Origin: a virus
Virus record (IMG/VR): IMGVR_UViG_3300037258_000720
Span: 1-46,839 of that record
DNA: 46,839 nt
Direction: 5' to 3' (one strand)
Shown piece after piece: positions 4,673-41,705 of this stretch. A model generated the notes under the pieces. That model saw only the letters and a list, made by a program, of their open reading frames with translations. It searched no databases and was not told where the DNA came from. Both the position numbers and the translations under genes were made by a program. The stretch's first letter is position 1. Each line of letters starts with the position of its first letter.

Positions 4673-4683
4673 TTGTTCCTCGT

Positions 4684-4714
4684 CCTCAAGCCTGTAGCCT
4701 CAAGCCTGTAGCCT
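4684..4714. repeat. TNNAGCC heptamer array
   Basis: Alternating CTCAAGC and CTGTAGC units are repeated twice directly before the start at 4719. They take up the place where a Shine-Dalgarno sequence would be. Confidence 0.75.
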
Positions 4715-4718
4715 TTGC

Positions 4719-7629: not shown

Positions 7630-7641
7630 GAGGCTCTTCCT

Positions 7642-7732
7642 CGTACCTCAAGCCCGTAGCCTCAAGCCTGTAGCCTTTTTAGTTCGTCCCTCACGCCCCT
7701 CAACACCTCACGCCCCTCACGCCCCTCACGCC
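7642..7732. repeat. Heptamer array and right-arm repeats
   Basis: TCGTACCTCAAGCC and CTGTAGC units are followed by a T stretch, TTCGTCC and four CTCACGCCCCTCA-like motifs that end exactly at the start codon at 7733. No Shine-Dalgarno sequence is present. Confidence 0.7.
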
Positions 7733-9739: not shown

Positions 9740-9890
9740 CTTGAGGCGTGAGGGGCGTGAGGCGGTGAGGACGCGCAAGCGTCCGCACCGCTCGGCAGTG
9801 CCTCAATCCGTTCGATGAGCCTAGCACTCATAGACTCATAGTCGTACCTCAAGCCTCAAGCCTCAAGCCTCAAGCCTCGAGCCTCTTCCC
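9740..9890. repeat. Composite stem-loop with perfect GGACGC-GCAA-GCGTCC hairpin
   Basis: GAGGCTTGAGG-type arms (9737-9760) and their complements (CCTCAAGCCTC, from 9846) surround the perfect hairpin at 9769-9784, which has a GCAA loop. Five consecutive heptamer units fill 9846-9886 and end just before the start at 9892. Confidence 0.72.
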
Positions 9891-9891
9891 C

Positions 9892-11391
9892 ATGCCCGCC
9901 TTCCGCCAAGACCGCCGACCGCTGCTGGGCGGCGACCGCCAGACCTACGACGGTGTGAAGATCTACCGCGTCCGGTTGCAGGACACGCTGTTGCCCGGCG
10001 GCAACGCCCCGGCCCACTTGCAGTATTGGAACGGCACGCAAGAGGTCGACGGCGCGACGGTCCAGACGATCCAGGTCTACGACCCGCATTTTCAGGTGCT
10101 GGGCTTCAAGGGCGAGCTGCTCGACGTCTGGCACGTCAGCGACATGATCGTCAATCCGCCCGACGGCGGGGCGCCGACCTTCAACCGCTTCGAGCCGGTC
10201 CACCAGCACGGCCTGATGCGGCTCGGGCAATACAAGGGGAGCCCCGGACTGCCGCAATACTGGGCGCCGGGCACGGCCCAGAGCGTCGAGATTTGGGGGG
10301 GCAATCTCGGCGGCGAGACCGACCAGCATGTCTCGGTCCTGGCCTCGAACACGTTCCCCGTCCCGGTTGCCCCCAATGCGTTTTTGTGGATCGAATCCAA
10401 CGGGATGACGCTCGACCACAACGGGGCGAATTTCTACGTCGTCGCCCCGCTCACCTTCGGCGTCCTGGCGCTCTACTCGGGCGGCGGCTATTGGTTCCCC
10501 GGCTCGAGCGCCTCGGTCCGGATCTGGGGCGGCACGCCGGGGGCCGAGACCGACCAGGCCCTGCCCGTCTATGCCTTCAACGGCTTCGATATCGTCGGCC
10601 CCAACACGTTCGTGTGGCTCGATCACAACGGCTACGCCTGGTATGTCGTGCAGCGCGTCGAGCCCTGCTGCTGGTGGCAGATGTGCGGCTCCGGCTGGCG
10701 GCTGATCCGCGGCCTGCCGGCGAACTGCGCCTCCCCGCCGAACTTTTCCGGCAGCGGCGGTCCGCCGCTCCTCTACGATGGCCAGGTCGTCGTCATCTGC
10801 CCAAAATGCTTCGGCACGACCTCGACGTCGACCTCCGTCAGCAGCACGAGCACCTCGACCAGCACGCCGACGGGCTCGACCCCCAGCAGCAAGCCCTGGG
10901 GCGGCGGGCCAGAGATTGGGGCCGATTGCGGAACCTGCACCAGCGGCACGACGCCCTACAACCTGTTCGCGGAGATGCCGGCGTTCGGTTCCGGAACTAA
11001 CGCTGCCTGCTGCAACGCCATCCTGAGCGGCAACGCCTTCGAACTGACCCAACTCATCTCCAACGCTTGCGTCTGGCGGTACGTCGTGGCTTTTGCCGGC
11101 GATTCCACCCCCTGCGATCTCACGCCGCTGGCGGGCAATTTTCAGATTCAGGGCGAATTCGGCACCTCCGGCGGCGACGTGGTCTTCAATGTCTTTATCG
11201 AGGCTGGCGGCGCTAATTTGGTCTGGAGCTCCGCGCCGCTGTTCGCGATCGACGCCGGGCCGGTCGATTGCCTGGCGATCCTCAAAAGCCTGACCTTGAG
11301 TTTCAACGCCGCCGCCAGCGGTGCCTCACTATTCTGCACCGATCCGACCGGCGGCTGGGACTTCGACGACATCTTCATTTCTGTTGTGTAA
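9892..11391 (+). CDS. Tail fibre / tip-like protein with duplicated module
   Basis: The product is 499 residues. A module occurs twice: VEIWGGNLGGETDQHVSV...FLWIESNG...NFYVV at about residues 124-183 and VRIWGGTPGAETDQALPV...FVWLDHNG...AWYVV at about 204-252. A Cys-rich segment follows (CCWWQMCGSG, CPKCFG), then a Ser/Thr-only linker (about residues 305-330) and a C-terminal domain with further Cys. The architecture fits a fibre or tip protein with repeated binding domains and a flexible linker. The receptor is unknown. Confidence 0.6.
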   Translation: MPAFRQDRRPLLGGDRQTYDGVKIYRVRLQDTLLPGGNAPAHLQYWNGTQEVDGATVQTIQVYDPHFQVLGFKGELLDVWHVSDMIVNPPDGGAPTFNRFEPVHQHGLMRLGQYKGSPGLPQYWAPGTAQSVEIWGGNLGGETDQHVSVLASNTFPVPVAPNAFLWIESNGMTLDHNGANFYVVAPLTFGVLALYSGGGYWFPGSSASVRIWGGTPGAETDQALPVYAFNGFDIVGPNTFVWLDHNGYAWYVVQRVEPCCWWQMCGSGWRLIRGLPANCASPPNFSGSGGPPLLYDGQVVVICPKCFGTTSTSTSVSSTSTSTSTPTGSTPSSKPWGGGPEIGADCGTCTSGTTPYNLFAEMPAFGSGTNAACCNAILSGNAFELTQLISNACVWRYVVAFAGDSTPCDLTPLAGNFQIQGEFGTSGGDVVFNVFIEAGGANLVWSSAPLFAIDAGPVDCLAILKSLTLSFNAAASGASLFCTDPTGGWDFDDIFISVV

Positions 11392-15658: not shown

Positions 15659-16136
15659 CCGACCGCCTGATCCGACTTTTTTCGAACCGGGTCTGCCACG
15701 GCCGTCAGCTCGTCAGAAACGCGAGTTTGACTTTTGTCGGCCGCCATCCTGCTCTTTCGCTATCAGCTCGAGCGCGGTGCACGGCCTTGGCAACCCGGTT
15801 TGATCCGTGTAGGTCCCCCTCGTCGCGGGCGTCTGGCTCCGCGGCAACAACGGCGTCCATAGCGCTTTGGGGAAACGCCCGGATTGAAGGCCGGGCCGGT
15901 AGCGCGGGAATGATGAATTCCAGCGCTGCCGACCGGTTTTTACCTTGCGGATGCATCCTGCTTGCTCCGCAATTAAAGTCGGAATGGTCGGCGCATGAAG
16001 ACTCGGACGACGGTCGCGACACGGATCGATGCGCGAACAATCGGGCGGAATGGTTCACGGGCCGCAAGCCCTGAACGGAGTCTGCCACGGAGGAAGGCCT
16101 GCGTGCCCAGATCACCTCGATCCTGGAGCAGCAACG

Positions 16137-17267
16137 ATGATTCACCACAAGCGGGATTCGCGACGTTCTCCACCCGCGCAGCCGCAGGGGCTGCGACTCT
16201 TTTCCGGCGACGGCCCTGGCCGCGCAGCTCAAGCAGAGCCTGCCGACGGCGAAGCGCTCTCGCCCGGCATGACGGTCAGCCAGTTTTACTTCGGCTATGT
16301 GCGGCCGATCGTGCTCCGCGAGCGGAACGCCAAGCCGCGGAATCTCCAGCAATACGACGGCACCGTCTCGTACTGGTCGCGGTTCACGGGCGATCCGCCG
16401 CTGGAGTCGATCGAGGATCGGCACAAGGCCGACTTCGCCGCGCGGCTGTGGGGCCTCAAAGGCCGCCGCGGCGGACCGATCTCGCAGAACACTGTCCGCA
16501 AGCACATGATCCACTTGCAGGCGGTGCTGGACCTGGCCGGCCCGCGCTCGCGCAGCGCCAATCCGCGCGGCGCCGATCTGTTGGTCGAGGCGCCGTATCT
16601 GCACAAGCCGGCCACGCTCACCACCGACGTGGAAAACGCATTCACGCTCGCCGAGGTCCAGCAGTGGCTGGCGGCCTGCCGGGGCGCCAAGTTTCCGACC
16701 GAGAGCGAGTCGGGCGTTCCCGCGCCCCTCTGGTGGCAGCAGTTGGGAATTTTTCTTTACAACGCCGGGCCGCGGATCGGCACGGCGCAGGAGCTCCGCT
16801 TTTCGTGGCTCGAGCGCGACGAGCTCGGCGCCTGGTTCCGCGCGCCGGAGGGGGCGGTCAAAGGACGGCGCAAACTGTCGATCTACGTCAACCCGTGGGC
16901 CCTGGCGGCGATCGAGACGATGCGGGCCGCGCTCGCTGCCGCCGGCCGGGGAAAACAAGATCGGATTTTCCTCTGGCCGCACGTGTTCAGTTGGCTGAAC
17001 GAGTGCCGCGTACGGCTGCTCGAGCGTTCGGAGATCCAGCCCAGTCGCCGCTTCGGCTTCCACGCCCTGCGCAAGGCCTGCGCGACGGAGCTCGGAAAAA
17101 TGAACTTCGCCGCGGCCAAGCTCCAACTCGGCCATGCCTCGAAAGACGTCACGCTGACCAACTACACGCATCGCGTGGTGCTGGTGGAAACGGCCAACCG
17201 CCTGCCCCAACCGGATTGGGACGCGGTCCGCTTCCAGGCCGGCCCGCGGCAGTTGGAACTTTTTTAG
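16137..17267 (+). CDS. int: Tyrosine-type site-specific integrase
   Basis: The 376-residue product would insert and excise the phage at attP/attB. An N-terminal SAM-like DNA-binding part (GMTVSQFYFGYVRPIVLRERNAK...NTVRKHMIHLQAVLDLA) precedes the catalytic domain. Visible catalytic elements are Arg in NAGPRIGTAQELR, FHALRKACATELG (box II His-x-x-Arg), LGHASKDVTLTNYTH (Gly-His and the nucleophile Tyr). The ATG at 16137 has GGAG eight bases upstream; an in-frame ATG at 16029 is an alternative. It supports a temperate lifestyle. The tRNA-Asn fragment at 13767-13814 is its likeliest target signature. Confidence 0.88.
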   Translation: MIHHKRDSRRSPPAQPQGLRLFSGDGPGRAAQAEPADGEALSPGMTVSQFYFGYVRPIVLRERNAKPRNLQQYDGTVSYWSRFTGDPPLESIEDRHKADFAARLWGLKGRRGGPISQNTVRKHMIHLQAVLDLAGPRSRSANPRGADLLVEAPYLHKPATLTTDVENAFTLAEVQQWLAACRGAKFPTESESGVPAPLWWQQLGIFLYNAGPRIGTAQELRFSWLERDELGAWFRAPEGAVKGRRKLSIYVNPWALAAIETMRAALAAAGRGKQDRIFLWPHVFSWLNECRVRLLERSEIQPSRRFGFHALRKACATELGKMNFAAAKLQLGHASKDVTLTNYTHRVVLVETANRLPQPDWDAVRFQAGPRQLELF

Positions 17268-17357
17268 AGGCTGCGGGCCACGGAAACACCTTGCGCCTCT
17301 GGGGGCCCAAGGTTGGGCCGGTTCGGCGGCGCGGCGATGATGGGAAGGCGCGGATTC

Positions 17358-17401
17358 GTCCGTTGTTCGTTGTCCGTTGTCCGTGGCAACTGACCACGGA
17401 C
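17358..17401. repeat. GTCCGTT heptamers and hairpin
   Basis: Four units (GTCCGTT, GTTCGTT, GTCCGTT, GTCCGTG) run at 17358-17385. GTCCGTGG (17379-17386) pairs with CCACGGAC (17394-17401) across a 7-base loop. The pattern resembles heptanucleotide repeats of cyanobacteria. Confidence 0.6.
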
Positions 17402-17419
17402 CACTGACGAGCCCTAACC

Positions 17420-17438
17420 GCCCGGGAGGAGGTCGGGC
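17420..17438 (+). promoter_or_regulatory. Hairpin with GGAGGAGG loop (possible CsrA site)
   Basis: GCCCG (17420-17424) and CGGGC (17434-17438) enclose GGAGGAGGT, which exposes two GGA triplets. CsrA-family proteins bind GGA presented in hairpin loops. A phage csrA gene lies 1.1 kb downstream. Confidence 0.4.
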
Positions 17439-17493
17439 AGAAAAGGAGGTGCGCGTGAGATCGACGGGTTGACCGTTTCGACGAATCCAGGAA

Positions 17494-17542
17494 GGCGGTC
17501 GGGCGTCCGCGTGGGTGCTCTACGGGGCCCGACCGCCGTTTT
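17494..17542 (+). terminator. Terminator-like hairpin upstream of the KOW-like gene
   Basis: GGCGGTCGGGC (17494-17504) pairs perfectly with GCCCGACCGCC (17527-17537), an 11-bp stem with a 22-base loop. GTTTTAA follows. The weak T run could mean attenuation and not full termination. Confidence 0.55.
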
Positions 17543-17560
17543 AACCAAGGAGTGCGCAGG

Positions 17561-17848
17561 ATGGCAGTGGAATTGAGAGACCGAGTCCGCGACACGATCA
17601 CCGGCTATACCGGGATCGTGATCGGCGTCACGCAATGGATCCATGGTTGTGTGCGCTGCACGGTGCAGGCACGGGAACTGAAAGATGGCCGGCCGGTCGA
17701 TCCCGTGTGTTTCGACGAGCCGCAATTGGAACTGCTCTCGGCGGCCGCCGTCCCGCTGCCGTTCGCGCAAACGGTCGCGCCAACGGACGCAGCAACGCGC
17801 GGCGGTCCGCTTGCCGCGCCCGCGCGGCGTCCCGACGTGCAGCGTTAA
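17561..17848 (+). CDS. Small KOW/SH3-like phage protein
   Basis: The product is 95 residues. The segment DRVRDTITGYTGIVIGVTQWIHGCVRCTVQ looks like a small SH3-like barrel (KOW type) found in a widespread conserved phage family of unknown role. It continues with LKDGRPVDPVCFDEPQLELL and ends in a Pro/Ala-rich tail. The ATG at 17561 is eight bases after GGAG (17549-17552); GTG at 17552 is possible. It opens the early operon that contains csrA. Confidence 0.6.
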   Translation: MAVELRDRVRDTITGYTGIVIGVTQWIHGCVRCTVQARELKDGRPVDPVCFDEPQLELLSAAAVPLPFAQTVAPTDAATRGGPLAAPARRPDVQR

Positions 17849-17854
17849 TTTTTC

Positions 17855-17875
17855 CGGCCCGCAGGAAGCGGGCCG
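17855..17875 (+). promoter_or_regulatory. GGA-loop hairpin 1 (candidate CsrA site)
   Basis: A perfect 8-bp stem CGGCCCGC/GCGGGCCG closes the pentaloop AGGAA. It lies seven bases after the stop at 17848 and 71 bases before the start at 17946. GGA in a tight apical loop is the established recognition element of CsrA. Confidence 0.5.
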
Positions 17876-17892
17876 TTTACGGGTGGCCAATA

Positions 17893-17920
17893 GCCCGGGC
17901 TCAGGGACGCGAGCCCGGGC
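17893..17920 (+). promoter_or_regulatory. GGA-loop hairpin 2 (candidate CsrA site)
   Basis: A perfect 10-bp stem GCCCGGGCTC/GAGCCCGGGC closes the loop AGGGACGC. The loop holds AGGGA, which fits the A-R-GGA core. The following gene's start is 26 bases further on. Confidence 0.5.
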
Positions 17921-17945
17921 CGGGCGAACCGAAAGGGCGACAACG

Positions 17946-18176
17946 ATGAATGCCGGCCAACGCAATTGTTACCTGGCGCTCAAAGCGGCGGTCGAACAGT
18001 ACGACCTCGACGATGCGCTGTTCGCGCTCGCGGCGCTCATCGGCGAGCAAGGCGCCCGCGTCGCCGACGATTGGTACTTCAGGCTCGCGCGGGGACACAT
18101 CCAAGATGCGCGTGGGCATCTGCGCCGCGCCCGTCCTCAAGCCTGTAGTCTCAAGCCTGTAGTCTCAAGCCTGTAG
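17946..18176 (+). CDS. Small helical protein ending in repeat-encoded tail
   Basis: The product is 76 residues and starts MNAGQRNCYLALKAAVEQYDLDDALFALAAL. It is predicted helical with no recognised family. The last residues (QACSLKPVVSSL) are encoded by the heptamer array, which supplies the TAG stop. The original C-terminus was therefore probably replaced by repeat. A weak AAGGGCG lies upstream of the start, preceded by two GGA-loop hairpins. Confidence 0.5.
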   Translation: MNAGQRNCYLALKAAVEQYDLDDALFALAALIGEQGARVADDWYFRLARGHIQDARGHLRRARPQACSLKPVVSSL

Positions 18177-18214
18177 TCTCAAGCCTGTAGTCTCAAGCCT
18201 GTAGTCTCAAGCCT
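18136..18214. repeat. Six-unit 14-base tandem array
   Basis: CTCAAGCCTGTAGT occurs six times at exact 14-base spacing (18136, 18150, 18164, 18178, 18192, 18206), ending in CTTTTT. Each 14-mer is two heptamers. It overlaps the end of the gene at 17946 and precedes the ribosome binding site of 18239. Confidence 0.85.
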
Positions 18215-18238
18215 TTTTCACCAGCCGGAGGAGCGACG

Positions 18239-18481
18239 ATGGCAAGCGAAATCGAAACGGCAATCGCCGCCGACACCACGATCGGGCCGAACACGCCCGA
18301 AGCGCCCGTCGCGGTGGAGCTCGAGACGGAGGAGGCCTGGCTGGTGCGAGCGCTGCTGCGGCAGGTGGTCTCGGCCAACCGCGGCCGGCGCTCGTTCGGG
18401 ATTGCCAAAGGGATTTTGCAGAAGCTCGGCCAGGCCGAGATCGCGGCGGTCGAGCGCACGTTGCGTAACTCAAACCTGTAG
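18239..18481 (+). CDS. Small acidic protein of unknown function
   Basis: The product is 80 residues and starts MASEIETAIAADTTIG. It has an acidic N-terminal half and a helical C-terminal half (EEAWLVRALLRQVVSANRGRRSFGIAKGILQKLGQ). A good GGAGGAG Shine-Dalgarno sequence precedes it. The end (RNSNL, stop) is formed by the repeat AACTCAAACCTGTAG. It lies immediately before csrA. Confidence 0.5.
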   Translation: MASEIETAIAADTTIGPNTPEAPVAVELETEEAWLVRALLRQVVSANRGRRSFGIAKGILQKLGQAEIAAVERTLRNSNL

Positions 18482-18533
18482 CCTCAAACCTGTAGCCTTG
18501 TCCCTTGTCTTGATTTACGAACAGGAGGTTCGA

Positions 18534-18740
18534 ATGCTGGTTTTTTCCCGGAAGCGCGGCGAGACGATCGTGTTCACCACGGCCGCGGGGGAGCGGATCA
18601 CGGTCCGGGTCTGTCGGATCGGCGGCGACACGGTCCGCCTGGCCTGCGACGCCGACCCGGCGACCTCGATCCACCGCGGCGAGGTCCAGGAGCGGATCGA
18701 TCGCGAGCGGGGTGATTTGCAGGGAGGCCGCGCCGCATGA
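18534..18740 (+). CDS. csrA: CsrA-family RNA-binding regulator
   Basis: The 68-residue product begins MLVFSRKRGETIVF and continues ITVRVCRIGGDTVRLACDADPATSIHRGEVQERI. This follows the CsrA/RsmA fold from strand 1 to the C-terminal helix, with family-length spacing and the LVFSRK start. CsrA dimers bind GGA motifs in mRNA leaders and block or change translation. The Shine-Dalgarno sequence (ACAGGAGG) itself matches the ACAGGA binding consensus, so autoregulation is plausible. The stop overlaps the next start (ATGA), so the two genes are coupled. Confidence 0.85.
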   Translation: MLVFSRKRGETIVFTTAAGERITVRVCRIGGDTVRLACDADPATSIHRGEVQERIDRERGDLQGGRAA

Positions 18741-19222
18741 ACATTTTTTCGCCGACCTGGCTGACTACCTGCCTGACTGCCTGGCTCCGCGGCTGGCGCG
18801 ATCGGCGCACCAACCAGCGCTATCTGCGGGTCCGCCTGCGGCAAGCGCGGCGGCTGGCGGCGGGGCAGCAGCAGCAGTGCGCGCGGATGCGGCTCCACTG
18901 GCTGTCGGCCGAGCAGCGGGTGAACCAACTGGCCCGCGAGAACGAGCAGCAGCGGCAGACGATCCACTTGCAGCGCCAGCGGCTGGTCGAGCTCGGCACG
19001 CAGCGGCCGTGCGGCGTCTGCCCGCCGTTGCAATTTGTCCCCTGGCCAGTCGACGCCAAGCAGCAGCAGCCGCTGGTCAACGGAAAACTCTGGCTGCGTT
19101 TTTTCGTGAAGGTCAACGACACGCACGTCTGGGTCAGTTTGGTTGCGTCGGGGCGCGCTCCGCTGCTGCATTTCCTCGATCGGCTGGAAGGCCGACCGAG
19201 CACACCCGTTTCTTCGTCCTGA
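18737..19222 (+). CDS. Coiled-coil protein coupled to csrA
   Basis: The 161-residue product overlaps the csrA stop by four bases. A short hydrophobic N-terminus (MNIFSPTWLTTCLTAWLRGW) leads into an Arg/Gln-rich coiled coil (about residues 25-92, RLRQARRLAAGQQQQCARM...). A compact C-terminal domain (LWLRFFVKVNDTHVWVSLV) follows. The N-terminus could be an amphipathic membrane anchor. The family is not recognised. Coupling suggests a link with CsrA, possibly as partner or target. Confidence 0.55.
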   Translation: MNIFSPTWLTTCLTAWLRGWRDRRTNQRYLRVRLRQARRLAAGQQQQCARMRLHWLSAEQRVNQLARENEQQRQTIHLQRQRLVELGTQRPCGVCPPLQFVPWPVDAKQQQPLVNGKLWLRFFVKVNDTHVWVSLVASGRAPLLHFLDRLEGRPSTPVSSS

Positions 19223-19224
19223 AG

Positions 19225-19268
19225 TCTCAAGCCTGTAGTCTCAAGCCTGTAGCCTCAAGCCTTTTTTT
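19225..19268. repeat. Heptamer array ending in T run
   Basis: Three CTCAAGC units alternate with CTGTAGT/CTGTAGC and end in eight T's, just upstream of a GGAGG ribosome binding site for 19284. Confidence 0.75.
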
Positions 19269-19283
19269 TACGGAGGTCCAACC

Positions 19284-19520: not shown

Positions 19521-20453
19521 ATGGAGCAGCCTTGCAGCCGCGGCGAAGCGGTGCGGCGAGACGAGGCTTGGGACCTCGTCCGCCGGCATCCTTTGCTCCG
19601 TGGCGAACCGAAGATCGCCTGGCGGCTCCTCTGGGAGTTGGCCGGCGGAAAACCTGGCACCGTCCGCATATCCCCCGCTGATATCGGCTTGGACCAGGGA
19701 CGCGAAGATCCGAAGCGGTGCGGCTTGCGGGCGATCGAATCGCTCGAGCTGGCCGGTCTGATCGAGGTCGTCGATAGACGGAGCGGGCGCTGGAGCGTGT
19801 ACGTAGTCCAGCCAGCCGAGCTCGAAAGAGCTCGTCGCCGGCCCCACGATCCCCAGCGCGAGCTCCCCGGCGTAGAAGACGGCGAGCAAGACGCTGCCGT
19901 CGACGCCGGGGAAGCGACGGTCCGGTTGGAGACGGCGAAGTTGGCGACGGTCGAGCGGGAGACAATCGGCGTGGCGGATGTGGCGCCACATCCGCCCGCG
20001 CCCTCGCAAAACCTTCGGAAAAAACAAGCGCAGCGCGCGCCTTCCACTTCGGAACCCTTTGTACCTTCGGTAACTTCGTTACCTTCGGAACCTTCCTTAG
20101 TGGCCCAGCCATTTGGCGCGCTGCTCGTCGAGCGGGCGGCGGCCGCGGTCGCGCGCCGGCCCGGCAGCCGCGAAACGGAAACCGCGATCGAGGACCTGGC
20201 GGCCCGGATCAGGCAGGCCGTGGCCGATCCGCAGCTTCGCTCGGCTCCCGTGCTGCGGGTGGCGCGGGCGGTCGTGCTGGGCGAGCTCGACCAGGACGAA
20301 TTGCGCTCGATTCTGGGGCTGATCGACACCAAGCGCCGCGACGGCACGCTCGAGCGGGCGTGGTGGTATTTCGTCGGCGCGGCCCGCGCCGCCTTCAAAC
20401 GGGCCGGACTCGAGTGGCCGCGCGAGAACCCTCCCACGAGCGGAGCGAGATGA
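19521..20453 (+). CDS. Winged-helix DNA-binding protein (possible replication/regulatory protein)
   Basis: The product is 310 residues. The N-terminal part (about 12-95: AWDLVRRHPLLRGEPKIAWRLLWELAGG...CGLRAIESLELAGLIEVVDR...WSVYVV) reads as a winged helix with a beta wing, as in phage replication initiators and regulators. The middle is a low-complexity linker that contains a perfect 24-base palindrome (19973-19996) and CCTTCGG-type repeats (20056-20095). A C-terminal domain ends TLERAWWYFVGAARAAFKRAG. GGAAGGAG precedes the start. A role in replication is attractive because no other initiator is seen, but it is inferred. Confidence 0.55.
   Translation: MEQPCSRGEAVRRDEAWDLVRRHPLLRGEPKIAWRLLWELAGGKPGTVRISPADIGLDQGREDPKRCGLRAIESLELAGLIEVVDRRSGRWSVYVVQPAELERARRRPHDPQRELPGVEDGEQDAAVDAGEATVRLETAKLATVERETIGVADVAPHPPAPSQNLRKKQAQRAPSTSEPFVPSVTSLPSEPSLVAQPFGALLVERAAAAVARRPGSRETETAIEDLAARIRQAVADPQLRSAPVLRVARAVVLGELDQDELRSILGLIDTKRRDGTLERAWWYFVGAARAAFKRAGLEWPRENPPTSGAR
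19973..19996. repeat. Perfect 24-base palindrome, copy 2
   Basis: GGCGGATGTGGC followed by its exact complement encodes GVADVAPHPPA in frame within the winged-helix gene linker. It is the same family as 126-149 and the contig end. Confidence 0.65.
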
Positions 20454-21476: not shown

Positions 21477-23716
21477 CCGAGGTCCAGCGCGAAGCGGCGA
21501 TCGAGCGGTTTTTGAACGAGCGCCTGGCTGGCGGCCGCCCGTTTCGCGAGGCGATCGAGGCCACCGGGAACCGCGCGCGGGCCCGCGACGCGATCGCCCG
21601 CTGGACGGCGTTCGGGTGGGGCTTGGCCGAACAGCTCGACGAGCCGGCGCTCCAGGCCGACGCGGCCGGGCTGCACGTCAAGGTGGGCGTCGAGCCCTGG
21701 GGCACGGAGTGGCACGCGCCGCTCGAGTGGGACCAGATCATCGACGCCGCGATCGACGCCGACGCGGGGGCCGAGACGTGGGACGTGCCCGCGCTGCCGA
21801 CGATGGAGCGGATCGAAAACAAGGAGCGGGCCAAGCACGCGGCGAAAATGTCGACCGGCGACAAGATCGCGGCGGCGCGAATGAACGGCGAGCTCCCCGC
21901 CGACGGCGTGCTGACCGAGCAAGGCCTGGTCGCCGGCGACGGCGCGAAGCAAGTGGGCGGCAAGCCGCGCGCGCGCGGGGCAAGGGGCGTGCCCGATACG
22001 GGTTCCGCTTCTCTGCCCACGTCCTCGCGCCCCTCAATTTCTCACGCCCCTCAGGCCTCGTCCGATCCCGCGCTCGCGGCCGCGAAGGAAGCGGTCCAGC
22101 TCGTGCGGCTGGAGTGCATCGAGCCCAATCCCTACCAGCCGCGGCAAAACTTCGACGAGGCCAAGCTCACGGAGTTGGCCAAGTCGATCGAGACCGACGG
22201 CCTGCTGCAGCCGATCGCCGTCCGGCCGAAGCCGCGTCGTGGCAAGCCGTCGGCGGAAGAGCAGCTCGAAGGCCTCGGTTTGCTTACTCCTCAAGCCTCA
22301 AGCCTCAAGCCTCAAGCCTATCAAATCGTCGACGGCGAACGGCGGCTGCGGGCGATCAAGATTCTCGCGGCGCGCGACCCGCGCTTCAGTCGCGTCCCGG
22401 TCATCGTCCGCGAGACCACCGACCGCGAGATGGCCAAGCTGGCGCTCGTGGCCAACGACCAGCGCGAAGATCTCAATCCGATCGAGCGGGCCCAAGGCTA
22501 CCAGCGGATGGTCCGCGAGCACGGCCTGACCCAGGAGGAGCTCGGCGCGTCGCTCGGCCACAGCCAGGCGTTCGTCGCCAACGCGATCCGGCTGTTGGAG
22601 CTGCCCGCCGAATGGCAAGCCCGGGTTATTTCGCGCGAAATTTCCCCGAGCCATGCCCGCGATCTCGTGCCCCATGCCCGGCGGCCGGCGATCCTGAAGG
22701 AGATCGCCGACACGGTGAAGCAGCAGGGCGTCGCGCCTCTCAAGGGCTGGATCGCGGACGTCCGCCATGCGGTCCGCTATGTGTGCGTGCAGCTCGACAA
22801 CGGGGCCCGATGCGAGCCCAAGACCTATCGCCGCGTCGGCACGTTCCAGCCGACGCCGGAGCAGCTGGCGGAGCTGGACGTGATCGAGGTGCCCCGAGAG
22901 TACGGGAAAGGCATCGAGCGCTATGCCGCCAACACCAAGCTGTTCGACAAGCTCCAGGCCGCGTATGTGAAGGCCCTGCCGGCCGCCGGCGAACAGCGCG
23001 GCGGCAAAAAGTCCGGTGGTGCAGCCGCGGGCGGGAAGGAAAAAAAGCTCACGCCGGCCGAGCTGAAGAAGAAGGCCGCGGAGCAGGCCCGGATCTTCGC
23101 CGACCGCCTGGCCCGCTGGAAAATCCTCTGGCTGCGGTGGCTGATCGTCGAGGAGCTCGGCGAACTGGATCCGACCTGCACGGTGTTCATGAGGTTGGCG
23201 ATCTATTTCTCGGCCTCCAGCGCCGCCCACGATTGGCGGACGTTCGGCAAGCGCGAGCGCGATTTCGACAAGGCGATCACCACGCTCGAGCACTTGCCCA
23301 AGTCGGCGTCGCGGGTGAGATGCTGGGGACCGCTGGCCGAGTGCGCCGAAGCCGAGTTGGCCTACGTGCAGCGCGCCTTGGTCATGGCCTGGCTGCGGTT
23401 CGATCCGAAATCGAGCGACGGCCCCTCGACGATGTTCCCCGACGGCGGGGTTCCGGCGCTGGCCGCGCACCTGGAGATCGACACGCTCGCCGCCTGGCGG
23501 GAAGACCTGGCCGGCCCCTTGAGCCAGGCCTATTTCGAGCTGCACACGAAGGAGCAGCTCGCGGGGCTGGGCCGCGAGCTGGGCGTCCACGTCGACGAGG
23601 CTAAACCAAAAGGCGTGATCGTGAAGCAACTGCTCGCCTCGCCGGCGACGAAGCGCAAACTGCCCGCCGAGTTGGCCCCGGCGGCGGCGAAGAAGAAAGG
23701 GAAGGGCAAGAAGTGA
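21410..23716 (+). CDS. parB: ParB-like DNA-binding protein with repeat insertions
   Basis: The product is 768 residues. The ParB N-domain spans about 228-345: LVRLECIEPNPYQPRQNFDEAKLTELAKSI, then GLLQPIAVRP, then QIVDGERRLRAIKIL. The helix-turn-helix spans about 370-400 (HGLTQEELGASLGHSQAFVANAIRLLELP). A long C-terminal region with a Lys-rich tail follows, without a known domain. Repeat-derived peptides interrupt it at about 204-216 (SSRPSISHAPQASS) and 294-303 (PQASSLKPQA); the second splits the ParB core. TAGGAG precedes the start. No ParA was recognised. A role in partition or transcription control is inferred, and parS-like palindromes are scattered in the genome. Confidence 0.8.
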   Translation: MAIAERVRKAKEKQTKTKGQGLTEVQREAAIERFLNERLAGGRPFREAIEATGNRARARDAIARWTAFGWGLAEQLDEPALQADAAGLHVKVGVEPWGTEWHAPLEWDQIIDAAIDADAGAETWDVPALPTMERIENKERAKHAAKMSTGDKIAAARMNGELPADGVLTEQGLVAGDGAKQVGGKPRARGARGVPDTGSASLPTSSRPSISHAPQASSDPALAAAKEAVQLVRLECIEPNPYQPRQNFDEAKLTELAKSIETDGLLQPIAVRPKPRRGKPSAEEQLEGLGLLTPQASSLKPQAYQIVDGERRLRAIKILAARDPRFSRVPVIVRETTDREMAKLALVANDQREDLNPIERAQGYQRMVREHGLTQEELGASLGHSQAFVANAIRLLELPAEWQARVISREISPSHARDLVPHARRPAILKEIADTVKQQGVAPLKGWIADVRHAVRYVCVQLDNGARCEPKTYRRVGTFQPTPEQLAELDVIEVPREYGKGIERYAANTKLFDKLQAAYVKALPAAGEQRGGKKSGGAAAGGKEKKLTPAELKKKAAEQARIFADRLARWKILWLRWLIVEELGELDPTCTVFMRLAIYFSASSAAHDWRTFGKRERDFDKAITTLEHLPKSASRVRCWGPLAECAEAELAYVQRALVMAWLRFDPKSSDGPSTMFPDGGVPALAAHLEIDTLAAWREDLAGPLSQAYFELHTKEQLAGLGRELGVHVDEAKPKGVIVKQLLASPATKRKLPAELAPAAAKKKGKGKK
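22021..22053. repeat. In-frame right-arm repeat inside parB
   Basis: GCGCCCCTCAATT and CTCACGCCCCTCA, the intergenic right-arm motif, lie inside the coding frame and encode SRPSISHAPQ. Confidence 0.7.
22287..22319. repeat. In-frame heptamer array inside the ParB domain
   Basis: Four CTCAAGC units interrupt the coding sequence between the 'PIAVRP' strand and the 'YQIVDGERR' box, encoding PQASSLKPQA. Confidence 0.8.
22628..22641. repeat. parS-like palindrome, site 4 (inside parB)
   Basis: ATTTCGCGCGAAAT is a perfect palindrome inside the parB gene just after the HTH coding region. parS sites are often near or in parB. Confidence 0.6.
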
Positions 23717-24201
23717 TCGACCGGCGTAGCACAGCCCTGCACTCGCGCGATCCCCTGCCGCTGGGCTCGATCCGCGTGCGCCAGCGGCGAGGCTGCGCCG
23801 TGCGGATGATCAAAGTTCGGCTCGACGGTCCGCAGGGTGGGCGCTGGGTGCGACTCGCGCGATTTACCTGGGAGCAACGGCACGGGCCCGTGCCGCGCGG
23901 CCAGCGCGTCGCGCATCTCGACGGCAATCCGCTCAACGACGACCCGGCGAATTATGGCCTGATGACGCCGGGCCAGGTGATCCAGATGTTCCACCGCCTG
24001 CGGCCAGCGATGAGCGAATCGAACCGCCTGGCGATCCGCGAAACGACGAAGGACCGCAACCGGTTGATGGGCCGCGTGCATCGCGCCTCGGCGGCGCGTC
24101 GCCGCGGCCTCGTGGCAGGCACGCCCGAGTGGGAACAATTCATGGCCATGCCGAAGAAACAATGGCGACGCATCCTGCGAACAACTGCCTCAAGCCTGTA
24201 G
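23713..24201 (+). CDS. HNH-like (His-Me finger) endonuclease
   Basis: The 162-residue product starts at GTG overlapping the parB stop. RWVRLARFTWEQRHGPVPRGQRVAHLDGNPLNDDPANYGLMT follows the HNH_3 pattern (W..H/R..G.vP.g..v.h.dgn..nd...NL), with HLDGN as the second His/Asn element. Such proteins are homing-type or packaging-associated nucleases. The first catalytic His may be H23881-coded RHGPVP. The C-terminus (TTASSL, stop) is made by the repeat at 24187. Confidence 0.65.
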   Translation: MIDRRSTALHSRDPLPLGSIRVRQRRGCAVRMIKVRLDGPQGGRWVRLARFTWEQRHGPVPRGQRVAHLDGNPLNDDPANYGLMTPGQVIQMFHRLRPAMSESNRLAIRETTKDRNRLMGRVHRASAARRRGLVAGTPEWEQFMAMPKKQWRRILRTTASSL

Positions 24202-24215
24202 CCTCAAGCCTCCCC
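24187..24215. repeat. Heptamer array supplying the HNH gene stop
   Basis: GCCTCAAGCCTGTAG encodes ASSL and the stop; a further CTCAAGC follows, and CTCCCC leads to the ATG at 24216. Confidence 0.7.
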
Positions 24216-24485
24216 ATGACCGACACGACTCAAAAAATGTTCGTCGACGCGCCGCCGCATGGGCTGCGGTTTTATTCCGGGCGGCTGCGCTCGCGGGTGT
24301 TTCGCCCGGAGGAGTCGCTGCTGGTGCGCCGCGCCGCGGAGGCCGCGATCGCGACGGCGGCCAACGACGTGCGCCTCGGCGACTTCGGCATCCACGCGCT
24401 GGCCGGCGGCGTCGAGTCCTGGGCCGCCGTCACGGAAATCGAGGTCGTGACGAACGAGGCTACAGGCCACAGGCTGCAGGCTTAA
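24216..24485 (+). CDS. Small protein of unknown function
   Basis: The product is 89 residues starting MTDTTQKMFVDAPPHGLRFYSGRLRSRVF. It has a helical middle (EESLLVRRAAEAAIATAANDVRLGDFGIHALAGGVE) and a strand (AAVTEIEVVTNEA). The last residues (EATGHRLQA) come from the repeat family in reverse orientation (GAGGCTACAGG..., ending GGCTTAA). No Shine-Dalgarno sequence is present because the repeat abuts the ATG. The family is unknown. Confidence 0.5.
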   Translation: MTDTTQKMFVDAPPHGLRFYSGRLRSRVFRPEESLLVRRAAEAAIATAANDVRLGDFGIHALAGGVESWAAVTEIEVVTNEATGHRLQA

Positions 24486-25322: not shown

Positions 25323-25664
25323 ATGGCACGGAAGTTTGCGCGGCTTAGCTTTGATCCGCGGCTGCTGCTTGGCCCGGTCCTGCCGTTTCGCGGCTAGGAC
25401 AAGCCCCAGCCGGCGCGCATCGATCGGGCGGCGCTGAAGAAGGCGCTCAAGAAGCTGGTGCGCGGGACGGGCAAGCGCAGTTCGCGCGATCCGACGTGGC
25501 TCCGCGAAGCGACGGCCATTCGCCAGCAGCGCGAGCTCGCCGAAACGAAACTGCGCGTCGAGCGCCGCAACCAACACGCCGCGAACGCGGCCCGCAAGCG
25601 TGAATTGGCCGCGGCTGCTAGCGGCAGGCAATCCGGCCTTCAGCCTGGAGCCGCAAGCCTTTAG
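25323..25664 (+). pseudogene. Amber-interrupted small basic protein gene
   Basis: One frame runs from the ATG at 25323 (MARKFARLSFDPRLLLGPVLPFRG) to a TAG at 25395-25397. It then continues unbroken to 25664 as a basic helical segment (KKALKKLVRGTGKRSSRDPTWLREATAIRQQRELAETKLRVERRNQ), ending AASL with a repeat-derived stop. TAG ends many good genes here, so general recoding is unlikely. Options are a decayed gene, a sequencing error, or initiation at the GTG at 25458 that gives only the C-terminal part. Confidence 0.4.
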
Positions 25665-25681
25665 TCTCAAGCCGGTAGCCT
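25640..25681. repeat. Heptamer array
   Basis: CAGCCTGGAGCCGCAAGCC, TTTAGTC, TCAAGCC and GGTAGCC form a degenerate array that supplies the TAG at 25662 and ends in TTTTT. Confidence 0.6.
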
Positions 25682-25744
25682 TTTTGAAATAGCCGGCCCC
25701 ACGATGGGGCGGCTATGATCGTTTGTCCAGCGTGGGAGTTAGGG

Positions 25745-26428: not shown

Positions 26429-26941
26429 GTGAAAGCCGTGATCACCGAAACGCTGCGCTTGGCCCAGGCGAAGCAGATTCCGCTGTTGCGGGCCCTGGAG
26501 CTGGGCGGCTCGCACTGGCCGCTGGCCGAGGCCGACCTGACGCGGCTGTTCTGGCTCGAGCGGGCGGTCACGATCTTGATCTGCGCCGGCGACGCGCCGG
26601 CCGGCTATCTCATCTGGCGCACGCTCGGCCCGAAGGTGCGCGTCGAGCGGCTGTTGGTTTCGCCGCGGTTTCGCCGCAAAGGGATCGGCCGGCGGACGCT
26701 CGACTGGGCCGCGGCGCGGGCCCGCAGCGCGGCCGCCCGGTTCCTGACGACCGAGGTCCGCGAGCTCGACCTGCGCTCGCAATTGTTCCTGGCGGCCTGC
26801 GGCTGGAGCGCCTCGGCCATGATCGACGGCTTCTATCGGCGCCGCGCGGGGACCCGGACCTACGTCCAAAACGCGTTGCAGTTCGTCCGCCGGATCGACG
26901 GCCGCGCCGCGCCGGAGCTGAGCCATTTCGGAGCCGGCTGA
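26429..26941 (+). CDS. GNAT acetyltransferase 2
   Basis: The 170-residue product has VTILICAGDAPAGYLIWRTLGPKVRVERLLVSPRFRRKGIGRRTLDWA with the acetyl-CoA loop RRKGIG. FLTTEVRELDLRSQLFLAACGW follows, the RimI-like ending strand and helix. It is only distantly similar to the enzyme at 20457. The GTG start is used after three tandem AAGGGA motifs. The stop overlaps the sigma factor start. Confidence 0.75.
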   Translation: MKAVITETLRLAQAKQIPLLRALELGGSHWPLAEADLTRLFWLERAVTILICAGDAPAGYLIWRTLGPKVRVERLLVSPRFRRKGIGRRTLDWAAARARSAAARFLTTEVRELDLRSQLFLAACGWSASAMIDGFYRRRAGTRTYVQNALQFVRRIDGRAAPELSHFGAG

Positions 26942-27780
26942 TGAAGGCTACAGGCTTGAGGCCACAGGCTACAGGACGGCAGGCCACACGACGAGGAGCC
27001 ACGCACCTTCCGCCGGACGAGGCGGCGCTGTGGCACGCTTATCGCCGCAATCCGGCGGCGGCGCGGAATCGGCTCGTCGAGCGCTATTGGCCGCTGGTGA
27101 AACACCTGGCGGCGGCCATCTGGCAGCGCTTGCCCGACACGGTCGAACTGGACGATCTGGAGCAGGCCGGCGTGTTCGGCCTCGTGGACGCAATCGAACG
27201 CTACGACATCGGCCGCGGGCTGAAGTTCGCGACGTATGCGACGCCGCGGATTCGCGGGGCGATCCTCGATCACCTGCGGGCCGGCGACTGGGCGCCGCGG
27301 CTGGTGCGGCAGAAGGCGAAACAACTCGCCGGCGCGATCGATTCGGCCGAGCGCCAGCTCGGCCGCCAGCCGACGCTGCGCGAGCTGGCCCGGCTGACGC
27401 GCCGCACGCCCCGGGAAATCGAGCGGCTGGTCGAAGAGGTCCGCGTGCCGACGCTCGAAAGCCTCTCGAAGCCGATTGGCAGCAACTTCTACGAGCGGCC
27501 GCTGCAGATGGACGACCTGCTGCCGGACCCTCGCGGGCAACAGCCGGACACGGCGGCGCTCGCCCGCGATGTCTGGCGGGCGGCGCTGGCGGGCTGCAAT
27601 CGGGCCGAGCGGCTGCTGCTGATTCTTTATTATCACGAGCAGCTCACGATGAAGCAGATCGGCCGCTCGCTCGGCCTCTCCGAAAGCCGCATCAGCCAAC
27701 TGCACAGCGCGCTGGTGGAGCGGCTGCGAACCCGGCTTGCCGACCGCCGCTGCGAGCTGTTCGCAGCAGCGCGGGCGTGA
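26941..27780 (+). CDS. FliA/WhiG-type sigma factor
   Basis: The product is 279 residues. Region 2 spans about 36-120 (NRLVERYWPLVKHLAAAIWQRLP...LDDLEQAGVFGLVDAIERYDI...KFATYATPRIRGAILDHLR). Region 3 spans about 138-178 (ERQLGRQPTLRELARLTRRTPREIERLVEE). Region 4 spans about 218-268 (AERLLLILYYHEQLTMKQIGRSLGLSESRISQLHSALVERLRTRL). Length and layout match sigma-28. It would direct host RNA polymerase to phage promoters, probably late ones. The first residues (MKATGLRPQATGRQA) are encoded by reverse repeats, so the true start may be further in. Confidence 0.82.
   Translation: MKATGLRPQATGRQATRRGATHLPPDEAALWHAYRRNPAAARNRLVERYWPLVKHLAAAIWQRLPDTVELDDLEQAGVFGLVDAIERYDIGRGLKFATYATPRIRGAILDHLRAGDWAPRLVRQKAKQLAGAIDSAERQLGRQPTLRELARLTRRTPREIERLVEEVRVPTLESLSKPIGSNFYERPLQMDDLLPDPRGQQPDTAALARDVWRAALAGCNRAERLLLILYYHEQLTMKQIGRSLGLSESRISQLHSALVERLRTRLADRRCELFAAARA
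26944..26977. repeat. Reverse repeat forming the sigma factor N-terminus
   Basis: AGGCTACAGGC, TTGAGGCCACAGGC and TACAGGACGG are reverse-orientation repeat units that encode residues 2-12. Confidence 0.6.
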
Positions 27781-28803: not shown

Positions 28804-30605
28804 AACTTGACTCGACGGCCGTGATCCTGCTGGCCTTGGCATTTTCCGTCGCCGCCCGCGGCGCGGAGATCCCCGGACCCGATGGCCCCTGGCACGCGGC
28901 CACGCTCGGCACGCCGGTGCCCCTCAACGATGCCCCCGTCCTCAATACTCAAGCCGCAAGCCTCCAGCCTCAAGCCTCAAGCCTCGCCGCCTGCGGCTGC
29001 CCAACATGCCCCAACGGCCGCTGCCCCTATCAACCGAGCCCCTATCAACCGAGCCCTTACAGCGCGCCAGCGGCGCAAACGCCCGTACCGGCGGTGGCCC
29101 GGATTCGCGTCCCCGACGCCAACGGCCGCGGCACAAGCTACGGCAGCGGGAGTCTGATCGACGTCACTGCAAATGCGGGCCTGGTGATCACCAACAACCA
29201 CGTGGTCAAAGACGGCAACGGCCAGTGCGAGGTCGATTTCCCCAACGGCGGCCGCTATCAAGGAAAAGTCCTGGCGGCTGACGCCCAGTTCGACGTCGCG
29301 GCGATCGTGATCGCCGCGCCCGCCGGGATCCGACCCCTGGCGATCGCCGAGGCGCTGCCCCAGCGCGGCGAGCAGTTGGCGATCGCCGGCTACGGGCCCG
29401 ACGGCCAGTACCGGCAGGCTTCGGGGGCGTTGCAAGGCTTCGTCAGCGAAGACCGGTCGCCGGCCGAGTTTTTGGACATCCAGGTCGGCGCGCGGCATGG
29501 CGACAGCGGGGGACCGATCTTCAATAGCCAGGGCCAGTTGGCCGGGATGTTGAACGTCTCCAACGACAGCATCACCTGCGGGCCCTGCTGCCAGCGAATC
29601 CGTACGCTGCTGCGCGGCTGGTTCGGCCGGGGCGGCACAAAGGTCGGCGTCGGCGTGCAGGTCGGACCGGTCCAAGCCGGCGTCGGCGTGGCCGCCGCGC
29701 CCGCGGCCGTGGCGCCTGCCGCAGTGGCTCCGGCGGCAGTGGCTCCGCTCCAAACGCTCCCGCCGGCGACGGCGCCGCCCGCTGCGGCCACGCCGACGTC
29801 GGACCCGAACGTCATTTCGCGGTTGCAGAAAATCCAATCGTCGCTCGATACGCTTGGCCAGACCGCGGCCCAGAACGGCAGCACTGCGCCGCCCGCCGTG
29901 TTGTCGGGCCTGCAAGCGATCAACGCGGCGATCGCCAACCTGGCCGGCGGCCAGCAATCGGCTTCGCAGCAACTGAGCGAGCTCGCGCCGCTCAAGAATC
30001 TGCAATCGCAACTGCAAACCGCCTTGCCGCAGATCCAATCGCAAATCAACCAGGTGGCCAGCAACGTCACGCCCCAGCAGCTGCAGACCGTCCTCCAGGA
30101 CGCAGCCAAGTTCGCCCCGGCGATCGCCGCGGCGGCCGCGCCGGGCGGCCTGAGCCTCGCGTCAATTCTGGGACTGGTCGGCGCGGGCGGCGCCACGCTG
30201 GCCTCGATCGGGGCTCTGTTCCAGGCCAACAGCACGAAAACCGCCGTCACCCAATTGTCCCAGCGGCCGATTACGCTCGCCCCCGCCGCGTCGCCGGCGA
30301 GCTCGCCCCCTCAAGCCTCTAGTGCCCCATCCGCCGCGGCTCCCGCGGCTGCCGCCAGTTCCGTCGCGCCGTCGGTGAGCGTCGCACCGACGGCCCCTCA
30401 ACCCGCCAAGACGCAAACCGTGTATCAGCAAGTGCCGGTCCAGACCAATCGCCAGACCGCCCTCGAAATGGCCCTCAACGAGCTGGTCCGCCGCAACCCG
30501 AACAACGAAGCCTTCGTCACCCAGCTCAGCGGGATGGCCGACCAGTACGAAAGCGGTTTGTCAGGCCAGAGCAGCCCGACCACGCCGTCCACGACCAACC
30601 CTTAA
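28800..30605 (+). CDS. Secreted trypsin-like serine protease with long coiled/low-complexity tail
   Basis: The product is 601 residues with a signal peptide (KLDSTAVILLALAFSVAARGA, residues 2-22). A repeat-derived peptide follows at about 46-62 (VLNTQAASLQPQASSLAA), then a Cys/Pro linker. The S1C-type domain spans about 95-260 with His134 (ITNNHVV), Asp165 (FDVAAIVI) and Ser236 (GDSGGPIF). After an Ala/Pro linker comes a Gln-rich helical region (about 340-440), a hydrophobic stretch (SLASILGLVGAGGATLASIGALF, about 450-472) and an Ala/Ser/Pro tail. An exported chymotrypsin-fold protease is unusual for a phage. Confidence 0.78.
   Translation: MKLDSTAVILLALAFSVAARGAEIPGPDGPWHAATLGTPVPLNDAPVLNTQAASLQPQASSLAACGCPTCPNGRCPYQPSPYQPSPYSAPAAQTPVPAVARIRVPDANGRGTSYGSGSLIDVTANAGLVITNNHVVKDGNGQCEVDFPNGGRYQGKVLAADAQFDVAAIVIAAPAGIRPLAIAEALPQRGEQLAIAGYGPDGQYRQASGALQGFVSEDRSPAEFLDIQVGARHGDSGGPIFNSQGQLAGMLNVSNDSITCGPCCQRIRTLLRGWFGRGGTKVGVGVQVGPVQAGVGVAAAPAAVAPAAVAPAAVAPLQTLPPATAPPAAATPTSDPNVISRLQKIQSSLDTLGQTAAQNGSTAPPAVLSGLQAINAAIANLAGGQQSASQQLSELAPLKNLQSQLQTALPQIQSQINQVASNVTPQQLQTVLQDAAKFAPAIAAAAAPGGLSLASILGLVGAGGATLASIGALFQANSTKTAVTQLSQRPITLAPAASPASSPPQASSAPSAAAPAAAASSVAPSVSVAPTAPQPAKTQTVYQQVPVQTNRQTALEMALNELVRRNPNNEAFVTQLSGMADQYESGLSGQSSPTTPSTTNP
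28941..28985. repeat. In-frame repeat array inside the protease gene
   Basis: CTCAATA, CTCAAGC, CGCAAGC, CTCCAGC, CTCAAGC and CTCAAGC run in 7-base register within the reading frame, just after the signal peptide and mature N-terminus. Confidence 0.75.
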
Positions 30606-30645
30606 GCCTCTAGCCTCAAGCCTCAAGTCTCAGGACTTCTCCCCC

Positions 30646-31557
30646 ATGCCCACCACGACCGACCCTTTCAAGACCGAACAGATTCTGTGGTACAACAACG
30701 GGATCTGGGGCCAGCTCGGCTATGCCGCGCCGAATTTTGCTTTGGGCGCGCAAACCCAGAACGAGACGATCCAATATCTGGTCTACGCCCTGGGCAGAAA
30801 TCTCTCGGGCGTGATGCACCATCCCGACGCCGATTGCCGGACGCCGCCGACGATCAACACGCTGACCCGGATCCACAAGCTGGTCGTCCGGGCCCGGACC
30901 ATCTTGGGCGGGCGGGCGGTGCCGCCGGGCACGCCCGACATGGAAGCGGTCCACGTCCAGCCCGGCGCGCAGGATCAATTGATTTTCCCGGTCCCGTATT
31001 TCAAGGTCCACAACCAGTGGATGAAGGAATACGCGGGGCTCTGCCTGGCGGCGATCGCCGAGGCCTGCCAGCACAGCGAGAATCGGCAGCCGTTTGAGAT
31101 CTCCACCATCTTCGCCGGCGTCATCGGCCAGTACCTGCAACGCATTTACATGCGCCTCGGGACCGAGCTGTTGATGCTCCCGCCGGCGACGATCACGCCG
31201 AACTACGTGTTCAGCGCCGCCGATCTGGCCGGCTACAACCCGGCGGCCTGGTTCAGCGGCACGGAGATGATCGACGTCACGCCGAGCCTGACCCGGATGC
31301 CGACCGACGTCGACGTGCGGCCGCTGACGCGCGGCATTCCGGCCTCGAACCTGGTGGGCCTGGCGCTGTATCCCAGCGGCACGCCCTACAACCCGACCGC
31401 CCCGTCGAACGTCAACGCGTTGGGCGCCGTGGCCACGCCGGCGGCCGCGACCGCTGCGGCATCCACGCCCGCCGCTGCGGCGACAACTCCGGCCGCGACA
31501 GCGCCCGCCGCGGCCACGCCGGCCGTTCCCGCGTTCGCCACGCCGCCGTCGCCGTAA
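30646..31557 (+). CDS. Putative structural protein with Ala/Pro tail
   Basis: The product is 303 residues. The first 245 form a folded domain (MPTTTDPFKTEQILWYNNGIWGQLGYAAPNFALGAQTQNETIQYL...). The tail is Ala/Thr/Pro-only low complexity. No family is recognised. The same kind of low-complexity segment occurs in the neighbours at 28800 and 31627, which suggests exposed or matrix-like proteins of one functional group. The start abuts repeats and CTTCTCCCCC, with no Shine-Dalgarno sequence. Confidence 0.5.
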   Translation: MPTTTDPFKTEQILWYNNGIWGQLGYAAPNFALGAQTQNETIQYLVYALGRNLSGVMHHPDADCRTPPTINTLTRIHKLVVRARTILGGRAVPPGTPDMEAVHVQPGAQDQLIFPVPYFKVHNQWMKEYAGLCLAAIAEACQHSENRQPFEISTIFAGVIGQYLQRIYMRLGTELLMLPPATITPNYVFSAADLAGYNPAAWFSGTEMIDVTPSLTRMPTDVDVRPLTRGIPASNLVGLALYPSGTPYNPTAPSNVNALGAVATPAAATAAASTPAAAATTPAATAPAAATPAVPAFATPPSP

Positions 31558-32133: not shown

Positions 32134-32234
32134 ACCAACCCAACTGAAACCTGGGGGCGCGCCCAGCACGCCCGTTGCTGACCTACCTGATCGCAGCCTT
32201 GCGTGCCGCCGCCCCCTCTTCTTCTTCTTCGTCC

Positions 32235-32262
32235 CTCAAGCCTCAAGCCCCAAGCCTCATTC
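32235..32262. repeat. Heptamer array
   Basis: TTCGTCC is followed by CTCAAGC, CTCAAGC and CCCAAGC directly upstream of the start at 32265. Confidence 0.65.
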
Positions 32263-32264
32263 CC

Positions 32265-32618: not shown

Positions 32619-32647
32619 CCGCTGCCCCGCGTCCTCGTCCGTCCCCG

Positions 32648-32676
32648 TAGCCTCAAGCCTGTAGCCTCAAGCCTTC
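32648..32676. repeat. Heptamer array
   Basis: TGTAGCC and TCAAGCC units alternate four times in register, ending two bases before the ATG at 32679. Confidence 0.75.
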
Positions 32677-32678
32677 GC

Positions 32679-41628: not shown

Positions 41629-41705
41629 AGGCTACAGACTACAGGCTGCAGGACGCGCAAGCGTCCGGGCGCCTTCGTCCCTGGAGCCTGGAGCCTGGAG
41701 CCTCT
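41629..41705. repeat. Composite repeat with perfect hairpin
   Basis: AGGCTACAGACTACAGGCTGC, the hairpin GGACGCGCAAGCGTCC (41651-41666), TTCGTCC and three CTGGAGC heptamers (41684-41704) make a complete composite element before the gpW-like gene. Confidence 0.72.

Follow-up and report, generated by a model that had tools for sequence, protein, structure and literature searches.

CsrA-type hairpins precede a csrA gene carried by a predicted temperate phage of Planctomycetota

Results

Organization of the csrA locus

The window, that is, the whole stretch of viral DNA analysed here (46,839 bases), carries integrase, ParB-like, sigma factor, terminase, portal and capsid genes. A direct repeat lies at the ends of the record (positions 1–143 and 46694–46836, 138/143 identical), and because of this 143-nt repeat the record is likely a whole genome, either circularly closed or terminally redundant. 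The csrA gene is situated 1.3 kb downstream of a tyrosine integrase on the same strand, in a cluster of small open reading frames (p3–p8) and hairpins (HP1–HP3):

16029–17267, plus strand: tyrosine integrase, the upstream partner of csrA (PF00589, E=1.4e-6; phrog_1, E=4e-20)
17420–17438, plus strand: weak hairpin of 5 bp with GGA in the loop (GGAGGAGGT) and with neither a CAGGANG nor a CARGGANG motif
~17494–17542, plus strand: GC-rich dyad with a short T run after it, from sequence and fold; may be a terminator or belong to an attachment site next to the integrase
17561–17848, plus strand: small ORF p3, phrog_16275 (unknown function), with relatives in two other viral contigs (L004/L005)
17855–17875, plus strand: HP1, CGGCCCGC-AGGAA-GCGGGCCG, 8 bp, CsrB-type loop CAGGAAG
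17893–17920, plus strand: HP2, GCCCGGGCTC-AGGGACGC-GAGCCCGGGC, 10 bp, SELEX-type CAGGGACG in the loop
17946–18176, plus strand: small ORF p4, beginning 26 nt past HP2, no family match
18239–18481, plus strand: small ORF p5, coding-type codon-position GC, no family match
18518–18532, plus strand: HP3, CGAAC-AGGAG-GTTCG, a perfect 5-bp stem with the csrA Shine-Dalgarno (SD) sequence as its loop, ending one base before the ATG
18534–18740, plus strand: csrA, 68 aa (PF02599, phrog_9500 CsrA-like, alignments)
18719–18728, plus strand: possible weak site over the p6 SD, GC-AGGGAG-GC hexaloop, 2 bp only
18737–19222, plus strand: ORF p6, whose ATG overlaps the csrA stop (ATGA)
19521–20453, plus strand: ORF p8, downstream of csrA, at the position of the replication-initiator-like gene in related prophages

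The csrA gene is present where the initial annotation had placed it, and its product matches PF02599 with E=1.8e-14 and 53.8 bits against a curated cut-off of 27. Alignments show that the equivalents of E. coli CsrA R6, H43, R44 and E46 are retained; R6, H47 and R48 of the window protein, which correspond to the first three of these, are fully or almost fully conserved in 18 phage CsrAs. A 4-residue insertion lies between strands, and the structure model of the monomer (pLDDT 82) consists of three strands with a helix after them. Judged by family score and retained residues, the product is a true CsrA family member. Translation of p6 may be coupled to that of csrA because of the start-stop overlap. 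csrA is not the only regulator on the phage, which also encodes an RNA polymerase sigma factor at 26941–27780 (phrog_351, E=8e-33).

Three motif hairpins are confined to the csrA region

The three hairpins with GGA in the loop that the initial annotation listed before csrA all exist, with stems of 5, 8 and 10 bp. GGA loops as such are not enriched, since hairpins of at least 7 bp with this loop number five on the plus strand and six on the minus strand of the whole window, and the four such hairpins of at least 5 bp in 17268–18600 compare with 1.5 in shuffles (P=0.13). The binding preference of CsrA is more specific than GGA: the CsrB repeat reads CAGGA(U/A/C)G and the SELEX consensus RUACARGGAUGU, mostly in a six-base loop (PMC7652899). 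Both strands of the window were therefore scanned for CAGGANG (CsrB repeat) and CARGGANG (SELEX), a choice of motifs made post hoc, after the loops were known, though from the published consensus. Among the 47 matches on the two strands, the longest stems surround those at 17902 (10 bp), 17862 (8 bp) and 18522 (5 bp), and these three hairpins all lie on the plus strand, at most 680 nt before csrA. When the stem is required to close tightly around the motif with at least 5 bp, HP1, HP2 and HP3 are the only hairpins found in 46.8 kb on either strand; a looser rule, with the motif anywhere in the loop, adds a single minus-strand hairpin at ~37142. None of 3000 shuffles of the region contained two or more such hairpins (three observed), and none of 150 shuffles of the whole window placed three or more in any 700 nt.

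The match of HP1 and HP2 to the CsrA motif thus exceeds chance. Their GGAs are ~41 nt apart, the 97-nt fold around HP2 is more stable than expected (z=-3.2), and both lie ~600 nt upstream of csrA within the same gene cluster. Their stems are longer than those of most SELEX ligands and neither covers an SD. Of the three hairpins proposed before csrA, these two are significant, and the one at 17420–17438 is at chance level and is probably not a CsrA site.

The 17400–17542 segment, which had been put forward as a terminated small CsrA-binding RNA, is unremarkable, as is the hairpin within it, because GGA loops are not enriched and its GGA count of four is equalled in 14.6% of windows. Its fold is no better than that of shuffled sequence (z=-0.57). 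The GC-rich dyad with its short T run does exist at ~17494–17542 and, together with the four GGAs, is what such an RNA would have in its favour; the dyad is absent from the terminator-scan list. The segment has no CsrA loop motif, and a search with the Rfam Csr sRNA families gave no match there. It also adjoins the integrase, a usual place for attP. A sponge of the CsrB/RsmZ type was accordingly rejected at 17400–17542 (ordinary GGA count, one weak loop, no Rfam match); HP1 and HP2 would contribute only two loops toward a sponge-type RNA. It is very improbable that this segment acts as a small CsrA-sequestering RNA.

The csrA Shine-Dalgarno sequence lies in a hairpin loop

The SD of csrA, ACAGGAGG, is present as described in the initial annotation, which read it only as a linear element and overlooked the hairpin around it. 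In HP3 the GGA of the SD sits inside a loop, CAGGAGG, that carries the CsrA motif, with a sixth base that departs from the CsrB consensus CAGGA(U/A/C)G. HP3 is a pentaloop and not the best-supported hexaloop, and alone it is weak (-4.7 kcal/mol). A stem of at least 5 bp closing a penta- or hexaloop over the SD, as in HP3, occurs in only 5/454 control genes.

A second structure involves tandem repeats. Some 20 copies of 7/14-nt tandem repeats (CCTCAAG / CTCAAGCCTGTAGC) are scattered over the window, often directly before a start codon that is without an SD:

First half: 4677–4725, 7639–7687, 9840–9902, 18128–18232, 18461–18509, 19204–19280, 22275–22323
Second half: 24181–24221, 25630–25692, 28940–28988, 30593–30655, 32227–32267, 32630–32692, 41673–41713

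Also recurrent are a related form on the opposite strand, GGCTTAGGG, and a family of 17 nt, CCTCACGCCCCTCAA, and an exact 22-mer is absent from 99 Planctomycetota genomes. In a 141-nt fold that covers 18461–18532, the csrA SD prefers pairing with the upstream CCTGTAG repeats (CCTGTAGCC), and the repeats may therefore serve as anti-SD elements. This predicted pairing may represent a second regulatory layer, or it may be an argument against HP3.

Hairpin loops over the SD are enriched among csrA genes

The csrA of another phage (L002), whose product shares a 52% identical segment and the same 4-residue insertion with the window protein, has its SD in ACTA-AAGGAG-TAGT. With the SDs of both genes in hairpin loops, SD loops were tested across csrA genes from IMG/VR phages and Planctomycetota genomes, clustered by leader, with other SD-bearing genes of the same loci as controls. 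The CsrA hexaloop register was defined exactly as in SELEX: a loop of GGA with two bases before it and one after, closed by a stem of at least 2 bp. In the discovery set this register is found in 34% of csrA leaders and ~10% of controls (p=1e-8), while other registers stand at ~9%. A first fresh set gave a weak result, 18%, with p=0.24 against its own controls and p=0.014 against pooled controls; because of this weakness a second fresh set was added under the unchanged rule, and it gave 36% (p=1e-7), with 48% in phages. Over all sets the hexaloop register is present in 72/257 csrA leaders (28%) as opposed to 9% of the 454 control genes (p=1e-10), and it ranks top of the 36 registers at csrA SDs. 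An A stands two bases before the GGA in 75% of csrA leaders and 37% of controls. The pentaloop register, to which HP3 belongs, is only mildly enriched. Near other csrA genes, motif hairpins of at least 5 bp occur 15 times in sense and once in antisense orientation.

Flagellin is the classic textbook target of CsrA in other phyla. At three Planctomycetota loci beside csrA (L028, L253 and L262; csrA +307 to +380), the SD of a gene named as flagellin from its N-terminal sequence lies in a perfect CsrA hexaloop hairpin, ACAATC-AAGGAG-GATTGT-ATG. Flagellin is documented as a CsrA target in Campylobacter (PMC4894983), and recovery of these hairpins serves as a positive control that the search finds real sites. 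For the gene after csrA over all loci, enrichment of SD hairpins is not clear (p=0.07). The idea that the gene following csrA is as a rule a target was dropped on this ground, and the target claim is restricted to flagellin and to the prophage family described below.

Related prophages in Planctomycetota genomes

Relatives of the integrase lie upstream of csrA on the same strand at nine csrA copies in four Planctomycetota genomes, which were sampled from the same phylum as the Planctomycetota MAG with locus L003. The integrase-csrA spacing is 713–1079 bp at eight of these loci and 2342 bp at the ninth. Two of the loci (L549/L550 and L554/L555) extend into prophages that are homologous to and collinear with the window; both share its integrase, terL and tail genes, and L550 shares the portal gene as well. 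On this collinearity we assign the window to a temperate, tailed Planctomycetota phage. Searches of viral contigs by integrase or terminase returned no close relatives, and no close relative preserves HP1/HP2; the p3 relatives L004/L005 have no csrA and, in the stretches examined, no CsrA-type hairpins.

The gene directly after csrA in these prophages encodes a winged-helix protein of replication initiation families (phrog_391, 270 and 428), giving a conserved order of integrase, csrA and replication-initiator-like gene (rep). CGAACA-AGGAA-TGTTCG encloses the rep SD in three genomes (with flanks that otherwise differ in one of them), TGAAC-AGGAC-GTTCA does so in three copies within a single genome, and ACA-AGGAT-TGT in one other genome. 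Between these hairpins the outer pair changes from C-G to T-A and the loop AGGA is unchanged. HP3 of the window (CGAAC-AGGAG-GTTCG) is nearly identical to the prophage rep hairpin, but it is placed on csrA. Comparison of p8 with the prophage rep gene detected no homology, and no strong SD hairpin was found at p8.

Several further observations were made in these genomes. Two genes, a lipoprotein-like ORF at L549:15290 and another ORF on the reverse strand of L555 at 15411, each start directly after a perfect hairpin with an ANGGAN hexaloop (stems of 5 and 7 bp); the antisense strand has none. The cargo between rep and terminase (L549:7708–14234, minus strand) encodes large proteins that, by eye only, resemble TIR-type and GTPase or STAND-type defence proteins. 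The number of csrA copies reaches 17 per Planctomycetota genome: some have 9–17 (G002, G028, G052, G073, G091, G185, G198 and others) and many have one or none. Part of these multiple copies lies within integrase-linked elements.

Discussion

We propose, with a probability of about 0.62, that the window represents a temperate Planctomycetota phage with its own Csr circuit, which would repress csrA itself and early genes. The suggestion in the initial annotation of a phage-owned CsrA circuit gains support by comparison, from the motifs of HP1 and HP2, the loop around the csrA SD and the SD hairpins that follow csrA in the prophages. In such a circuit phage CsrA, presumably rather than that of the host, would bind HP3 and block the ribosome, thereby limiting its own synthesis and probably also that of the overlapping p6. 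It would also bind the paired HP1 and HP2 in the p4 leader, perhaps as one dimer across the two sites, with the result that the p4-p5-csrA transcript is repressed or that CsrA is soaked up. Because the prophage rep SD after csrA is covered by the same type of hairpin, the circuit most likely restrains phage early or replication genes, and the timing of their release would follow titration or depletion of CsrA. A fuller version, which we offer as speculation and consider unlikely, has phage CsrA acting on SD hairpins to repress both its own gene and the replication initiator. HP1/HP2 would serve as a sink built into the early transcript, and the onset of early transcription would titrate CsrA and free replication; the spread of such prophages would also supply part of the 9–17 csrA copies of some Planctomycetota.

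Other explanations account for parts of this evidence. Phage CsrA could act mainly on host mRNAs, for take-over or anti-defence, with the local hairpins serving self-limitation only. Phage RsmA/CsrA genes are many and repression of CRISPR-Cas has been proposed for them (PMC8450108); the plasmid RsmA homologue RsmQ takes global control (PMC9928087); and the Planctomycetota hosts are themselves rich in csrA. A circuit directed at the host does not, on the other hand, account for the finding that the prophages' replication gene itself has its SD covered by CsrA-type hairpins, and we regard this explanation as a real possibility that falls short of an even chance. HP1 and HP2 might also be GC-rich hairpins of the usual gene-end kind that terminate transcripts or protect 3' ends, which would leave HP3 as the sole CsrA site. 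HP1 does begin 7 nt past the p3 stop, T-rich sequence is nearby, and GC-rich hairpins of at least 7 bp are common in the window (77 per strand). The terminator scan called neither hairpin, however, HP2 is without a T tract, and among plus-strand hairpins of at least 7 bp these two alone bear CsrA motifs in their loops, which makes a pure gene-end role rather doubtful.

It is also conceivable that HP3-like hairpins work independently of CsrA, either by keeping the SD open in a loop or by toggling with the CCTGTAG repeats as anti-SD. The longer fold, in which the csrA SD pairs with these repeats, and the occurrence of the repeats before the start codon of many window genes fit this explanation. 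The signal across csrA genes is nonetheless specific for the register of the CsrA hexaloop, stronger at csrA than at other genes and biased 15:1 to the sense strand near csrA, and a CsrA-independent role is accordingly improbable. Under the preferred reading of a phage Csr circuit, the phage sequence itself points to candidate CsrA targets, namely csrA and, for the related prophages, rep, and the question of CsrA targets is reduced to a few gel shifts and reporter assays. If true, post-transcriptional repression by CsrA would join the means by which temperate phages check their early genes. The same comparison links prophages to some csrA copies in certain Planctomycetota.

E. coli CsrA represses its own synthesis through a site over its own SD (PMC7652899). 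The window csrA is similar in that its SD lies within a CsrA-type site, from which self-repression would be expected; it differs in being phage-borne and in its set of hairpins, one perfect stem around the SD and two further strong ones ~600 nt upstream. In the glgC leader a CsrA dimer binds two sites (PMC7652899), a hairpin site being paired with another, which offers a model for HP1/HP2, although HP2, unlike the glgC leader, does not overlap an SD. CsrA homologues also reside on other mobile elements, such as CsrT on Legionella ICEs (PMC7366521) and RsmQ on a Pseudomonas plasmid (PMC9928087), for which regulation of the element or the host is proposed or shown; their carriers are conjugative elements and not phages, and their gene context differs from that of the window. 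Phage-encoded CsrA/RsmA is likewise on record, with 30 phages in PMC7366521 and a survey of GenBank and IMG/VR in PMC8450108, and the window resembles these cases in carrying csrA on a tailed phage genome. The portions of the two papers available to us report presence and host links, and describe no cis sites on phage early genes. Among the open-licence papers searched, none was found that reports CsrA sites on the replication genes of phages or treats csrA as an early gene conserved among Planctomycetota phages. Compared with the catalogued phage csrA genes, as far as those portions show, what sets the arrangement here apart is that Planctomycetota prophages carry integrase, csrA and rep as a module whose SD hairpins are of the CsrA type. 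Phage csrA genes and autoregulation by CsrA are already known; the integrase-csrA-rep module with its cis sites seems to be new.
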